Positions 417 to 5,725 of a stretch of 5,725 bases of DNA are shown one piece after another. The notes beneath the pieces were generated by a model. That model worked only from the letters and a program-made list of their open reading frames with translations. It did not search any database and had not been told where the DNA came from. Positions within the stretch are counted from its first letter, which is position 1, and the number at the start of each line of letters is the position of its first letter. Made by a program: the position numbers and the translations under genes. This stretch comes from an uncultured Allobaculum sp. (lineage in GTDB: Bacteria > Bacillota_I > Bacilli_A > Erysipelotrichales > Erysipelotrichaceae): contig CAOKFJ010000133.1 in the NCBI GenBank assembly GCA_948467695.1, forward strand, positions 1 through 5,725, read 5' to 3'.

Positions 417-424
417 AAGGAGAA
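417..424 (+). promoter_or_regulatory. Ribosome binding site fixing the start at 430
   Basis: AAGGAGAA sits 5 nt before the ATG at 430. This is a near-perfect Shine-Dalgarno sequence. It rules against the in-frame ATG at 370, which would add 20 residues unlike any acyl-CoA dehydrogenase N-terminus and has no comparable site. Confidence 0.9.
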
Positions 425-429
425 CCATC

Positions 430-2319
430 ATGAATTTCACGACAGATTCCCGACACGAAGAACTCAGACAGAAAGTGCGCGCTCTGGTTGAGCAGCACAT
501 CGCCCCTATCGCTATGACGCTTGATGAAAAGAGCGAATTTCCCGAAGAATTCCTCAACGTCATGAAAGAGAACGGACTTATGGGTCTGCCCTATGCTAAA
601 GAAGATGGAGGCGCGGGAGAAGACGTTCTTGCCTACGCAATCGCTGTAGAAGAACTCTCACGCGTCGATGGCGGCGTTGGTGTCATTCTCTCAGCGCACA
701 CCTCACTCGGCACCTATCCGATTGCCGCGTATGGCAATGAAGAGCAGAAGAAGAAGTACCTCTATCCCCTCGCGAGCGGTGAAAAGCTCGGCGCATTCGG
801 TCTGACCGAAGAAAACGCTGGAAGCGATGCGGCAGAAACAGAAACCACAGCTGTTCTGGAAGGAGACCACTATATCCTCAACGGCAAGAAGATCTTCATC
901 ACCAACGCGCCATATGCCGACACGTATGTCGTCTTCGCCTCAACGAATCCCGCTAAAAAGACACGCGGCATTTCCGCTTTCATTGTTGAGAAGGGAATGG
1001 AAGGTTTCACCTTCTCTGATCACTACAACAAGATGGGCATTCGATCTTCCTCGACTGCCGAACTTCGATTCAAGAATGTGAAAGTTCCCAAAGAAAACCT
1101 TCTCGGTCTTGAGGGACAGGGTTTCAAAATTGCCATGTCGACACTGGATGGAGGACGCATTGGAATCGCTGCTCAGGCGCTTGGCATTGCACAGGGGGCG
1201 TTTGATGAAGCGCTCGCCTATGCAAAAGAGCGCGAGCAGTTTGGCGCACCGATCGCGGTGAACCAGGGCATTTCCTTCAAACTCGCCGATATGGCGACAA
1301 AACTTGAAGCGGCAAGACTTCTTATCTATAAAGCGGCCGAGAAGAAGCAGAATCACGAACCGTATGCGCTGAACGCCGCTATGGCGAAAATGTACGCTTC
1401 CGATATCGCGCTTGAAGTCTGCAACGACGCGCTGCAGATCTTCGGCGGCAGCGGCTATCTCAAAGGCATGGGCGTGGAAAGACGCTATCGCGATGCCAAG
1501 ATTACGACAATCTATGAAGGTACGAATGAAATTCAGCGCGTCGTCATTGCTTCCAATCTGCTTGGACGGCTTAAAAAAGGAAGCACCGCGCCTGCTAAAG
1601 CAGAAGCGAACAGCAACAAAGCGGAGGCAGGTAAAGCAGCGCCTGCAGGCGTGCAGATGATCGATGAAGCGACACTTGCCGACTCGGTGAAAAAGCTCGC
1701 ATCGATTCTCAAAGCGCAGTTTGACTTCAGCAATAAGGAAGATATCGATATACCGATCGCTTCGGCAAAGAAGATCATCGGGATCGGTCAGGGCGCAATG
1801 AACCGCGAAAACGCCGCCAGAGCAATTGATAATGCCAAGGCGCTTGGCATGGCGATCGGCGGAAGCCGTCCGGCTGCCGAAGTGCACCACTTTATTGCGA
1901 TGGATCGCTTTATCGGCATGTCCGGACAGAAAGCCAATGCTGATCTGTACATCGCCTGCGGCATCTCCGGATCCAAGATGCACATGAAAGGTCTCGACAA
2001 CGTCAAAACGATTGTCGCGATCAACACCGATCCTGACGCGCCGATCTTCAAGGATGCCGCGTATGGTATTGTCGGCGATATGAATGAAGTGCTCGACCTG
2101 CTTGAAGCCGAGCTTTGCGGAAAGTCTGACAATGATGACAATGGCGGACTGTATCAGTGCACGCTGTGCGGTTACATTTATGATCCGGTGATCGGGGATC
2201 CTGAAAGCGGAATCGCGCCAGGAACGTCTTTTGCGGCCCTTCCTGATGACTGGACGTGCCCGATCTGTGGAGCGAAAAAGGAAGATTTCATCCCGTTTGG
2301 AAAAGACGGACAGAAATAA
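430..2319 (+). CDS. Acyl-CoA dehydrogenase / EtfA C-terminal FAD domain / rubredoxin fusion
   Basis: This 629-residue cytoplasmic redox protein has three modules. Residues 1-381 are a full-length short-chain (butyryl-CoA type) acyl-CoA dehydrogenase, interconverting acyl-CoA and 2-enoyl-CoA. Its marks are the FAD/substrate motif [10 protein letters not shown] (124-133), QIFGGSGY (336-343), and YEGTNEIQR with the expected catalytic base Glu363. Residues 382-407 are an Ala/Lys-rich linker. Residues about 440-560 match the FAD-binding C-terminal domain of ETF alpha: GGSRPAAE with Arg480, an SGQ motif at 498-500, [12 protein letters not shown] ending in His518, then [15 protein letters not shown] alpha domain I is absent. 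Residues 574-629 are rubredoxin, with iron ligands Cys577, Cys580, Cys610 and Cys613 in CTLCGY and CPICG. The order suggests electron flow between dehydrogenase FAD, ETF-type FAD and the iron site. A terminator follows, so the gene appears monocistronic downstream. Acyl chain length, physiological direction and external partner cannot be read from the sequence. Confidence 0.95.
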
Positions 2320-2347: not shown

Positions 2348-2383
2348 AAGACGGAAAGAACGATCTTTCCGTCTTTCTTTTCT
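2348..2383 (+). terminator. Rho-independent terminator of the fused flavoprotein gene
   Basis: A perfect 12-bp stem, AAGACGGAAAGA (2348-2359) with TCTTTCCGTCTT (2364-2375), has a 4-nt loop ACGA and runs into TTTCTTTTCT. It lies 28 nt after the stop codon at 2317-2319 and separates this transcript from cysE. Confidence 0.92.
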
Positions 2384-2516: not shown

Positions 2517-2543
2517 ATGTCTGTTTGCAGGTACTATGAATGA
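2517..2543 (+). CDS. Possible leader peptide (8 codons) ahead of cysE
   Basis: The ORF reads MSVCRYYE and is preceded by GAAAGGGG (2506-2513), a purine-rich Shine-Dalgarno-like run only 3 nt from the ATG, which is tight spacing. It contains one Cys codon and follows immediately after a 7-bp stem. A role in sensing cysteine supply upstream of a cysteine-synthesis gene is imaginable, but a single Cys codon is weak evidence and chance occurrence is quite possible. Confidence 0.2.
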   Translation: MSVCRYYE

Positions 2544-2626
2544 AACATGGACATATGGACTGCACGACGAATTCTCTGCGAAGCATAGATGCCGTAAGTG
2601 TGATGATGCGGTCTGCATGTCGACAA

Positions 2627-2632
2627 GAGAGG
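2627..2632 (+). promoter_or_regulatory. Ribosome binding site fixing the cysE start at 2641
   Basis: GAGAGG lies 8 nt before ATG 2641. The in-frame upstream ATGs at 2536 and 2617 have no comparable site, and family alignment by eye places the normal serine acetyltransferase N-terminus at MSYREF. Confidence 0.75.
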
Positions 2633-2640
2633 ATGATGGT

Positions 2641-3309
2641 ATGAGTTATCGTGAATTTATCAAAGAAGAAAAGGAATGCTTCATGGCTCTTGATCCTTCT
2701 CTGAACTCGACTCTCGAAATTCTGGCGATGCCGGGCTATCGCGCAATCAAAACGTGGTACCGCACGCATCAGCTGTACCTGAAAAAACACTACGTGCTTG
2801 CCCGATGGCTCTCTCTCAGGGCACAGCGCAAGACGGGAATAGATATTCATCCGGGCGCGACAATTGGAAAGCGTCTGTTTATCGACCACGGCAGCGGAGT
2901 TGTTATCGGCGAGACATGCATCATCGGCGACGACGTCAAGATTTACCAGGGCGTCACGCTTGGCGGAACCGGCAAAGACAAAGGCAAGCGTCATCCGACT
3001 GTTGAAGACAATGTCCTTATCGGTGCCGGAGCCAAAATCCTGGGCAACATTACCATCGGACGCGACGCCAAAGTCGGCGCGGGAGCGATTGTCATTCGCG
3101 ATGTCGATCCGGGAAACACCGTTGTCTGCCCGCCGGCGTATCCGGTTCGCTTTAAAGCCGGCAAGCATTCAAACCTTTGCGCCAACGGCAAGGAAAGATG
3201 GACCCGCGAGGAAATCAAGTGTCTGCAAAACGGGAAAATCAAAGTATGTCCGGGTCAAACTGCCCTCACAAAAGTGAAGGAAGGTTGCGAAAGTCAGCCT
3301 AAGGACTAA
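2641..3309 (+). CDS. cysE: Serine O-acetyltransferase
   Basis: CysE transfers an acetyl group from acetyl-CoA to L-serine, giving O-acetylserine for cysteine synthase, in the cytoplasm. The 222-residue protein has a short helical N-terminal domain (1-60) and a left-handed beta-helix of hexapeptide repeats (about 67-165). Expected catalytic residues are present at family spacing: Asp68 in IDIHPGATIG, His83 in FIDHGSGVVIGET, and His118 in GGTGKDKGKRHPT. Length is close to short Gram-positive CysE (about 217 residues). The frame is open upstream to ATG 2536, which would add 35 residues (CRKC...C), but the ribosome binding site favours 2641. The tail is unusual: the usual GxPGR-like ending of the helix is replaced by VVCPPAYPVRF, five cysteines follow (163, 180, 194, 203, 216), and the C-terminal residue is Asp rather than the Ile that docks into cysteine synthase in classical CysE. 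No cysK lies nearby. The next gene begins 27 nt later, suggesting an operon. Confidence 0.93.
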   Translation: MSYREFIKEEKECFMALDPSLNSTLEILAMPGYRAIKTWYRTHQLYLKKHYVLARWLSLRAQRKTGIDIHPGATIGKRLFIDHGSGVVIGETCIIGDDVKIYQGVTLGGTGKDKGKRHPTVEDNVLIGAGAKILGNITIGRDAKVGAGAIVIRDVDPGNTVVCPPAYPVRFKAGKHSNLCANGKERWTREEIKCLQNGKIKVCPGQTALTKVKEGCESQPKD

Positions 3310-4067: not shown

Positions 4068-4087
4068 CATGTTCTATCGGGAACATG
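4068..4087 (+). promoter_or_regulatory. Perfect 7-bp dyad, possible operator or 5' hairpin
   Basis: CATGTTC (4068-4074) and GAACATG (4081-4087) flank a 6-nt spacer TATCGG. It follows a run of seven T. The arrangement GTTC-N6-GAAC is the reverse of the Gram-positive LexA box (GAAC-N4-GTTC), so LexA is not supported. Its place just downstream of the possible -10 would suit a repressor site or an mRNA stem-loop. A terminator reading is less likely because no T run follows the stem on the + strand; on the - strand the same dyad has an A-to-T run after it. Confidence 0.35.
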
Positions 4088-4251
4088 CAGCTCGAATCAA
4101 AGACAAGGAGTCTTCCGGCACAACTGCCTCATCAGTCAGAGTCGTCATCAAAATGTTCAGCAGATCGTCAAACGGCTGCGACAGCGAATGCGGCTCGCCT
4201 CAAGACGGCTTCTTCATCGAACTTTCAATCTATCAGGGCTGCTCTCATCAG

Positions 4252-4259
4252 AAAGGCGG
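4252..4259 (+). promoter_or_regulatory. Ribosome binding site for the zinc-ribbon gene
   Basis: AAAGGCGG lies 7 nt upstream of ATG 4267. It supports that start over the in-frame ATGs at 4069 and 4153, which have no purine-rich site before them. Confidence 0.6.
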
Positions 4260-4266
4260 AAACATC

Positions 4267-5725
4267 ATGAAAAAATGTCCTACCTGCAGGCAGAAAAGTC
4301 CAGACCAGGATATTTTCTGCGGTCAATGCGGGACCAGACTTCCTGCACATAAAACGGGAAAAACAAAAAACCTCATACTTCTGGCAGTTTTGATTCTCTT
4401 CACATTCATTACCGGAACGATATCCGGATCACTTTGGTCAATAAAAGCGGATTCTTCAAAACAGCAGAACATAAAAGACACAGCCACAGGCGCAATCAGT
4501 CCATCCTATCCTGAACTGATTGTTCAGTCAGAAAAGCTTCTGGAAGCAGGAGAACTGAATAAAGCTGAAAATATGCTCCTGCAGGCAAGCAAACAGGAAC
4601 CTCAGCAGGCTCTTCCTTACGAGAAGCTGTACGCCATGTACATCGCGCAGTCCCAAACAGAGAAAGCCGAGGAAATAAAGGATCAGGCGCAGCAGAACAT
4701 TGCGCAGGACCAGAAACCAGACTTTGACGCCAGCATTGACGTAATTACCGAGGACGCGAAGCCCGATCCTGCACGAAAGGAAATCGCTGATCTAGGCAAG
4801 CTCGAATTCACGCCGATCAGCTTTGATGGCCGCGGATGGCTTATCCGTAAAGACGGTGTGTTTTCCTATCTGCTTCCAGATGGCACAATTCAAGAAGCCA
4901 CAGGAACAGATACTGTTCTCGTCATGGACAATGGAACAAGCAGCGAAGCACCAGGACAGAACGCCTGCCTGGGCAGCACGGTTGACTACAACACCAATTA
5001 CATAATCGCGAATGGAACGATGACCACAGGCGGCGCATGCGGAGCTGGCGGCTTTATGGTCACACATCCGTATATTCTCGATGATCAGAATAATGTTGTA
5101 TTAACCGATCAGGCAGTTTCTTCGCAGAGCTCGCCATTGGGCAGCGGGCAGAATTTTGCTATTACCTCTCCGATCGTTGTCAGTCATCAGCCCAAAGCGG
5201 AAGGGGATTATTATATTTATCTCCCAAATAACGAACAACTGTTTGGTCCGTATGCCAAAAGCGAATCAGCGACGTTTTACAGCGCGGCAAAAAAGATTCC
5301 AAACCTCAATTTTCTGATGGATATGCAGAAAACAAGCGGCCCGTTCTGGATTCACAATCCTGCTGAAGCGTATGGACATGAGAATGGCGTTCAGAATCGT
5401 TTTTCTCTGCTCAGCGAAGACGGTTCGAAAAAACTTGAAGGTTTCTCGAGCGCGCAGGCTGTGGATGCATTCTCGATTGGCGCTCACAGGTCGCATCGCT
5501 TCTATTCATTTGATCGCGATTTGAAAGAAGTCTATACAGGTCTCTATGAAGCAGGTGCAACCGCAATTGATGGCGCGGCGCCCGTCAAGACAGACGGCAC
5601 ATGGAAGCTCGTCTCACTTGAACAGTCGGATGCCAATCAAAATGAGAGCTCTAAGCCTGAAACAGCAGAATCTTCCGTTATCCAGCCGCGTCCAAATACA
5701 GATTTCTCTGCACTAAGCGGCTCTT
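4267..5725 (+). CDS. Zinc-ribbon, single-pass membrane protein with TPR-like segment (3' end outside window)
   Basis: The frame is open from ATG 4267 to the window edge, giving 486 complete codons with no stop. Residues 4-21 form a zinc ribbon (CPTC...CGQC, Cys4, 7, 18 and 21) like those at the N-terminus of many Firmicute membrane proteins. Residues 35-57 are one strongly hydrophobic helix. The few residues before it are Lys-rich, so the ribbon should lie in the cytoplasm and the rest outside. Residues about 80-145 are helical and TPR-like (LLEAGELNKAENMLLQA, then Pro and a Tyr/Leu-rich second helix, then EKAEEI). From about 175 the chain is polar and probably beta-rich (FDGRGWLIRKDGVFSYLLPDG), faintly like WG-type repeats. 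It has two isolated cysteines (234, 258) that could form a disulfide. A Ser/Glu/Pro-rich stretch lies near 458-480. No catalytic motif was recognised. Possible roles are envelope sensing or scaffolding, but this is not established. Confidence 0.85.
   Translation, partial: MKKCPTCRQKSPDQDIFCGQCGTRLPAHKTGKTKNLILLAVLILFTFITGTISGSLWSIKADSSKQQNIKDTATGAISPSYPELIVQSEKLLEAGELNKAENMLLQASKQEPQQALPYEKLYAMYIAQSQTEKAEEIKDQAQQNIAQDQKPDFDASIDVITEDAKPDPARKEIADLGKLEFTPISFDGRGWLIRKDGVFSYLLPDGTIQEATGTDTVLVMDNGTSSEAPGQNACLGSTVDYNTNYIIANGTMTTGGACGAGGFMVTHPYILDDQNNVVLTDQAVSSQSSPLGSGQNFAITSPIVVSHQPKAEGDYYIYLPNNEQLFGPYAKSESATFYSAAKKIPNLNFLMDMQKTSGPFWIHNPAEAYGHENGVQNRFSLLSEDGSKKLEGFSSAQAVDAFSIGAHRSHRFYSFDRDLKEVYTGLYEAGATAIDGAAPVKTDGTWKLVSLEQSDANQNESSKPETAESSVIQPRPNTDFSALSGS

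Follow-up and report, generated by a model that had tools for sequence, protein, structure and literature searches.

A fusion of acyl-CoA dehydrogenase, ETF alpha domain and rubredoxin without an adjacent flavodiiron protein gene in an uncultured Allobaculum

Butyryl-CoA oxygen oxidoreductase (BOOR) is a route by which anaerobes burn the electrons of butyryl-CoA on oxygen; the primary paper on the Fusobacterium nucleatum enzyme is reportedly that of Bystrom and Wolthers from 2024 (doi 10.1021/acs.biochem.4c00279). In the accessible passages of PMC12288474, the F. nucleatum enzyme is an alpha4beta4 complex with butyryl-CoA:O2 activity, in which the butyryl-CoA-oxidising subunit, BCR, combines Bcd, the C-terminus of EtfA and a rubredoxin and passes electrons to a flavodiiron protein (FDP). 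BOOR corresponds to FN1423-FN1424 in the available portions of PMC12630350, and a 2026 preprint, in the parts accessible (PMC13404960), places a BCR–FDP gene pair of gut Clostridia near an Rrf2 regulator. No mode of docking between BCR and FDP was found in the BOOR literature passages available.

The stretch of DNA analyzed here, referred to as the window, comprises 5,725 nt on contig CAOKFJ010000133.1 (assembly GCA_948467695.1) of an uncultured Allobaculum sp., whose genome is labelled G000. A sequence-only reading had proposed that an acyl-CoA dehydrogenase, half an ETF alpha and a rubredoxin are joined in one chain, and all three parts were recovered above Pfam cut-offs within a single gene with the following features.

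430..2319, + strand: BCR-type fusion gene, 629 aa (single stop-free frame and Pfam)
417..422, + strand: ribosome-binding-site-like AAGGAG, 7 nt ahead of the ATG (read from the sequence)
430..1569, + strand: acyl-CoA dehydrogenase part, residues 1-380 (Pfam; model versus 5ol2_C; E363 invariant in 44 rows)
1570..1665, + strand: first hinge, residues 381-412, with pLDDT below 50 at 381-406 (model)
1666..2115, + strand: ETF alpha C-terminal FAD domain, residues 413-562, with SRP at 479-481, ISG at 512-514 and H518 (Pfam ETF_alpha; EtfA-type chains)
2080..2157, + strand: short acidic hinge, residues 551-576, 26 aa, net charge -6 (counted from YGIVGD to the first cysteine, thus including the last ETF helix of the model, 551-563)
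2152..2289, + strand: rubredoxin domain, residues 575-620, with C577, C580, C610 and C613 (Pfam; PDB; invariance)
2348..2375, + strand: terminator-like hairpin of 12 pairs with a T-rich tail, starting 28 nt past the stop codon (pattern scan; fold)

The dehydrogenase part is covered by Acyl-CoA_dh_N (residues 8-118, 125.6 bits, cut-off 22.9), Acyl-CoA_dh_M (122-217, 99.1 bits, cut-off 33.3) and Acyl-CoA_dh_1 (229-377, 179.6 bits, cut-off 22.4). The middle region matches ETF_alpha (443-522, 65.7 bits, cut-off 27), as had been supposed, and the tail matches Rubredoxin (575-620, 79.4 bits, cut-off 23); Pfam finds no further domain in the chain. A search of solved structures agreed, with the front of the fusion resembling Clostridium difficile Bcd (5ol2_C, E 1.7e-137) and the tail resembling rubredoxins (9zdi, E 9e-23). 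Residues 413-562 resemble the C-terminal part of EtfA-type chains, represented by 14 distinct sequences (best E values 3.9e-24 for 4kpu, 2.1e-21 for 5ol2_A and 4e-13 for CarE, 6fah_A). The matches start at residues 166-270 of those chains, and by these starts and by Pfam, EtfA domain I and EtfB are absent from the window's protein. An AlphaFold2 monomer model (mean pLDDT 83.4, pTM 0.62; below 50 at residues 128-137, 381-406, 566-570 and 626-629) had 5ol2_C as its top Foldseek match, at 59% identity over 375 columns.

The active-site and cofactor motifs described as intact are indeed invariant in 44 aligned homologues: E363, S479-R480-P481, S498, I512-S513-G514, H518 and the four cysteines C577, C580, C610 and C613. 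The roles of these residues are presumed from their families, E363 being the predicted catalytic base. A frameshift or an assembly error joining separate genes, raised as a way in which the reading might fail, is ruled out by the single open frame, by a 630-residue protein from another source that is 94% identical (P0002) and by a copy at 80% identity in a single-contig congener genome (G060). The guess that related fusions occur in anaerobes is borne out by records from Bacillota, Fusobacteriota, Spirochaetota and Synergistota. The window's protein is thus a member of the BCR family, with all three domains in one chain. A novel architecture was also considered and rejected, the arrangement being already in print as the BCR of BOOR.

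Downstream of the BCR gene, the hairpin lies within a segment (2340-2390) that folds at -21.4 kcal/mol (z -4.9); the pattern scan returned 11 terminator-like sites across the window, where 7.0 were expected. No RNA family reached its gathering score in the window. A cyclophilin-like gene (Pfam) lies downstream of the BCR gene and cysE, and two further frames were delimited.

2536-3309: cysE-like frame, likely start the ATG at 2641
4069-5725: frame cut by the contig end, likely start 4267, with a weak zinc-ribbon match below the Pfam cut-off followed by a hydrophobic stretch

The genomic setting of BCR genes was surveyed in several sets of genomes, which form a sample rather than a census. Fusion matches were present in 13 of the 272 genomes searched in the window's family (E 1e-150 or better), in 6 of 395 genomes of the class sample (E 1e-150), three of them new, in 19 of 397 genomes of the family of G478, an Eisenbergiella tayi record (E 1e-180), and in 22 of 61 genomes of the family of G480, Fusobacterium gastrosuis (E 1e-150). 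A named genome collection, searched with patterns derived from BCR alignment A1, gave at least 28 BCR loci (L058-L085) among the 80 loci listed, most of the others matching in the rubredoxin part only. The neighborhood table contains 85 loci, from which other loci of the same places (among them L006-L017, L035-L037, L058 and L178) had been left out; removal of 6 duplicates with identical BCR ends leaves 79 distinct loci (family 14, class 3, named collection 27, G478 family 15, G480 family 20).

An FDP gene adjoins the BCR gene in 73 of these 79 loci, downstream at 11-265 nt in 72 and upstream in one (L169). The six loci without an adjacent FDP are those of the window, of three more genomes of the same genus (one with a broken copy), of an Ileibacterium-like genome and of a Lachnospiraceae genome (G000, G003, G060, G039, G476 and G603 in all); none of the five loci of the window's clade has an FDP next to the BCR. 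Across its whole 5,725 nt, the window holds no FDP match above chance-level fragments. The FDP-free flanks seen, upstream and downstream, were 429 nt and 3.4 kb in the window, 3.3 and 4.0 kb in G003, 10.0 and 7.1 kb in G060, 10.2 and 2.1 kb in G039, 7.4 and 6.8 kb in G476, and 3.7 and 9.9 kb in G603. For the window's genome a missed FDP is possible: the assembly, in 315 contigs, is 67.9% complete, only 429 nt precede the BCR gene on the contig, and L169 provides a precedent for an upstream FDP. Better controls are G060 (one contig, 92%) and G003 (98%), neither of which has an FDP of the linked clade; in G060, cysE (77%) and a cyclophilin-like gene (76%) lie near the BCR gene, and no FDP is found there.

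Two of the exceptional loci have peculiarities of their own. In the Lachnospiraceae genome (L197, G603:C69), the BCR gene lies two genes from guaA, with integrase-, relaxase- and ParM-like genes, named by eye, beyond it, which suggests an inserted element near guaA. In G476, which comes in addition to the 13 family genomes with a match, both BCR and FDP are in broken frames (L170, L206 and L211, G476:C1), suggesting an error-rich assembly.

The order in which the linked and unlinked states arose was approached with two BCR trees. A quick tree of the dehydrogenase and ETF columns of 79 BCRs, rooted on seven Bcds, and a careful tree of 55 rows with 51 BCRs both separated the BCRs, including the window's, from the Bcd outgroup (support 100 and 100/100, respectively). 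In the quick tree, the five members of the window's clade grouped together (100) inside the linked BCRs. A tree in which this clade branches first is 20.7 log units better (AU p 0.897), which makes the clade-first topology the more likely and indicates that the quick search missed better trees. An earlier interpretation from the quick tree, in which the linked state is ancestral and was lost twice, was accordingly withdrawn for the window's clade. The careful tree recovered that clade (100/100), joined by P0047 (81/96), and left the base of the BCRs without resolution; here too the clade-first tree, with P0047 on the clade's side, is better, by 11.8 log units (AU p 0.685). P0047 itself, a BCR of 616 residues whose hinge spans 28, may show what early BCRs looked like.

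The Lachnospiraceae BCR of G603 falls with two linked BCRs in the careful tree (100/97), and, as it nests among linked BCRs, G603 most likely lost its FDP. The window's clade, which may branch early, either lost its FDP or never had one. Among the loci sampled, the unlinked state arose at most twice, a number too small for significance testing. Grouping all unlinked BCRs in one clade lowers the likelihood by 33.3 log units in the careful set (AU p 0.187; p 0.546 in the quick set), and a single origin is not rejected.

The missing FDP neighbor coincides with a change in the segment between the ETF domain and the rubredoxin, measured from YGIVGD to the first rubredoxin cysteine and including the last ETF helix. 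In linked BCRs this hinge spans 41-44 aa and carries a net charge of +1 to +9 in all 72 readable loci (+2 in L061; L169 is cut by the contig end); it contains 4-10 prolines in 71 of 71 and a K-[MILV]-[KRP]-[RK] motif in 70 of 71, the remaining one having KRIRR. The hinges of all six unlinked loci span 24-38 aa, with net charges of -2 to -6. The pattern was noticed first in the window's clade; from it, the short-hinged P0036 from Lachnospiraceae was forecast to have no FDP neighbor, and its locus in G603 bore the forecast out; the 18 other BCRs of the G478-family search, four of which are also in the named collection, are linked and long-hinged, as are all 22 BCRs in the G480 family. Further short hinges occur in P0025, P0027, P0047 and P0035, which were found without genomic context. 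P0035 has a 20-residue hinge, and its own locus is not among the 61 G480-family genomes (best match 83%). P0048, with 32 aa and a net charge of +3, fits neither group. Four family members had seemed to lack a rubredoxin, matching only over residues 1-562 or 1-563; this was rejected, the domain being present after a longer hinge, as recovered from the reading frames for L011, L016 and L017 and via locus L052 for G006.

Because the partner and the basic hinge are jointly absent in all six unlinked loci and jointly present in all 72 readable linked ones, this short segment is a likely docking arm. From the joint absence in at most two lineages, we infer that the long basic hinge of the other BCRs may hold their dedicated FDP. 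A docking arm of this kind would be a directly testable segment.

Each of the five BCR-bearing genomes examined in the window's clade (G000, G003, G060, G039 and G476) has an FDP. In the window's genome a single FDP exceeds the Pfam cut-off, and it lies at its own locus on contig C145. When nine genomes were searched with a BOOR-type FDP, the best match in each of these five was 41-48% identical: 41-42% near full length in the first four and 48% over a partial match in G476. No FDP of the linked clade was found in G000 (68% complete), G003, G060, G039 or G476. G603 has an unlinked FDP at 60% identity to the BOOR type; G477 has neither a BOOR-type FDP match nor a BCR. In a quick FDP tree of 74 rows, built without the G480-family FDPs and carrying a long-branch-join warning, all 52 linked FDPs present lie on one side of a branch (99), and outside it fall the FDP of G603 and all five from the window's clade. 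Genes named by eye around the unlinked FDP include potassium-channel-like genes next to it in G000 (L055), G060 (L040), G003 (L043) and G039 (L045), and ChrA-like transporters on its other side in G000, G060 and G003.

These data bear on the possibility that the window encodes an ordinary BOOR, with its FDP elsewhere in the genome and assembling into the same fixed complex. An FDP in trans does exist, and paired genes can come apart while remaining functional. However, the trans FDP belongs to another clade (41-42% identity to a BOOR FDP, or 48% partial in G476) and has a separate locus flanked by channel- and transporter-like genes, and the hinge differs in six of six unlinked loci, which makes this explanation decidedly unlikely. 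We instead consider it probable that this BCR fusion, having no adjacent FDP, oxidizes butyryl-CoA and passes the electrons via its rubredoxin to an acceptor whose gene lies elsewhere in the genome, an explanation that does not depend on whether the linked or the unlinked state came first. Judged from sequence relationships, this acceptor is most likely the genome's other-clade FDP, the leading candidate because its relatives carry rubredoxin-like tails of their own: three family FDPs (L154, L155 and L156), 52-53% identical to that of the window's genome, are fused to a flavin-reductase-like part and a rubredoxin-like tail, so that an FDP of the window's type plausibly takes electrons from a rubredoxin domain.

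The rubredoxin of the window's protein resembles free rubredoxins. It shares 65-72% identity with five of the clade's free rubredoxins, versus a median of 54% and a best of 61% with the rubredoxins of linked BCRs; the latter reach a median of 59% and a best of 72% against the same free ones, which was counted against the favored explanation. A comparison of 70 linked rows with 24 from the window's clade gave 16 columns with a consistent difference, R293 to E among them; eight lie in the dehydrogenase, eight in the ETF domain and none in the rubredoxin. Rubredoxin domains were read by pattern in 64 listed proteins, nine of which were left unparsed. Three such domains occur in P0003, P0020, P0022 and P0024, from the window's clade, and in P0025 from outside it; P0027, also from outside, has two. 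The second and third rubredoxins of P0020, P0022 and P0024 are of a short type of about 35 residues.

A free-type rubredoxin would also suit an acceptor other than an FDP, such as rubrerythrin, with the fusion serving more broadly as a butyryl-CoA:rubredoxin reductase. A chain with two or three rubredoxins, as found in relatives, would be odd for a single fixed partner, and rubrerythrin is described as accepting electrons from rubredoxin in the accessible text of PMC12288474. Against this stands the FDP in each of the five BCR-bearing clade genomes examined, and we regard a non-FDP acceptor as unlikely. Another candidate component is a standalone rubredoxin in the window's genome (L057, G000:C184), which might be what actually supplies the unlinked FDP with electrons. 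Here and in L162 and L163 it lies beside an ApbE-like gene, and RnfC-like genes are close to it in G000, G003 and G039 (all named by eye).

The window's clade is under purifying selection, with dN/dS of 0.05-0.17 where dS was finite and several pairs saturated or infinite. A decaying relic is unlikely, since dN/dS is well below 1 in all domains, though with dS near saturation.

By analogy with F. nucleatum BOOR, the dehydrogenase FAD would take up electrons from butyryl-CoA and hand them to the ETF-domain FAD, from which they would reach the rubredoxin iron one at a time. As a fixed FDP is missing in the window's lineage, the rubredoxin would likely meet its acceptor by diffusion; with the unlinked FDP of contig C145 as the candidate, oxygen would be removed via a transient rather than a fixed complex. 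The sequence-only reading had envisaged a self-contained electron relay with rubredoxin as a port. The exit port agrees with the BCR of BOOR; the relay is not self-contained, as a terminal acceptor is needed.

A likely source of substrate is seen in the congener genome G060, where genes named by eye as a CoA-transferase, crt, hbd, etfA, etfB and bcd are clustered, close to a thiolase, so that butyryl-CoA is expected in the genus; the assembly of the window itself, which is 67.9% complete, yielded no Bcd. On another contig of that assembly (L003/L056, G000:C84), EtfB, an EtfA of 400 residues whose N-terminus is ferredoxin-like, and an oxidase resembling GlcD/LctD stand in a row that, named by eye, resembles an electron-confurcating lactate dehydrogenase. 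The chain of domains is reversible in principle, and reduced rubredoxin might therefore enter it and drive crotonyl-CoA to butyryl-CoA, the potential of butyryl-CoA being about -10 mV (PMC12288474, accessible passages). Yet in G060 crotonyl-CoA reduction has its own Bcd with EtfAB, and the known BCR is described in the same passages as running in the oxidative direction; we consider reverse flow highly improbable. The evidence counted for oxidation of butyryl-CoA with transfer to an acceptor encoded elsewhere comprises the characterized BOOR of F. nucleatum, the pattern of hinge and FDP with the forecast for P0036, the FDP clades, the rubredoxin-like tails of FDP relatives, the free-type rubredoxin, dN/dS, the hairpin and the G060 cluster.

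More speculatively, there may be two kinds of BCR, a proposal we put forward tentatively, as possible rather than probable. The first would be that of BOOR, tied to a dedicated FDP by a long basic arm that is the FDP docking site. The second, in the window's clade and separately in one Lachnospiraceae lineage, would lack both arm and partner and carry a free-type rubredoxin, tripled in some, acting as a free-standing butyryl-CoA:rubredoxin oxidoreductase that feeds several acceptors of oxygen and peroxide; a state older than the recruitment of the FDP may even persist in the window's clade. Labelling the fusion alone as BOOR would be unsafe in genomes such as that of Allobaculum. The literature searched, consisting of partial texts and few subscription papers, yielded no description of an unlinked BCR type.

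Compared with known systems, the fusion architecture is known already, and what differs here is the missing FDP neighbor and the short acidic hinge. The bifurcating Bcd-EtfAB complexes (C. difficile 5ol2; CarCDE 6fah) share the dehydrogenase fold and the EtfA C-terminal FAD domain; the window's chain differs in having neither EtfB nor EtfA domain I and in its added rubredoxin. The unlinked FDP of the window's genome falls within the wider clade of class A and reductase-fused FDPs, which have no BCR fused or adjacent in the loci read. The BCRs of gut Clostridia, in the accessible parts of PMC13404960, share the domain architecture and have FDP neighbors, whereas the window has cysE and a cyclophilin-like gene downstream. 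The closest described counterpart, the BCR of F. nucleatum BOOR, has the same three domains, with the motifs kept in the window's fusion, but an FDP gene adjoins it and none lies beside the window's gene. Unlike the BOOR BCR, the window's clade sits on a long stem of 0.54 changes per column in the careful tree. The sequence compared directly was P0108, a BCR from a Fusobacterium sp. rather than the F. nucleatum protein, to which the window's BCR is 62% identical; before the rubredoxin, P0108 has 43 basic, proline-rich residues, in contrast to the 26 acidic residues of the window's protein.
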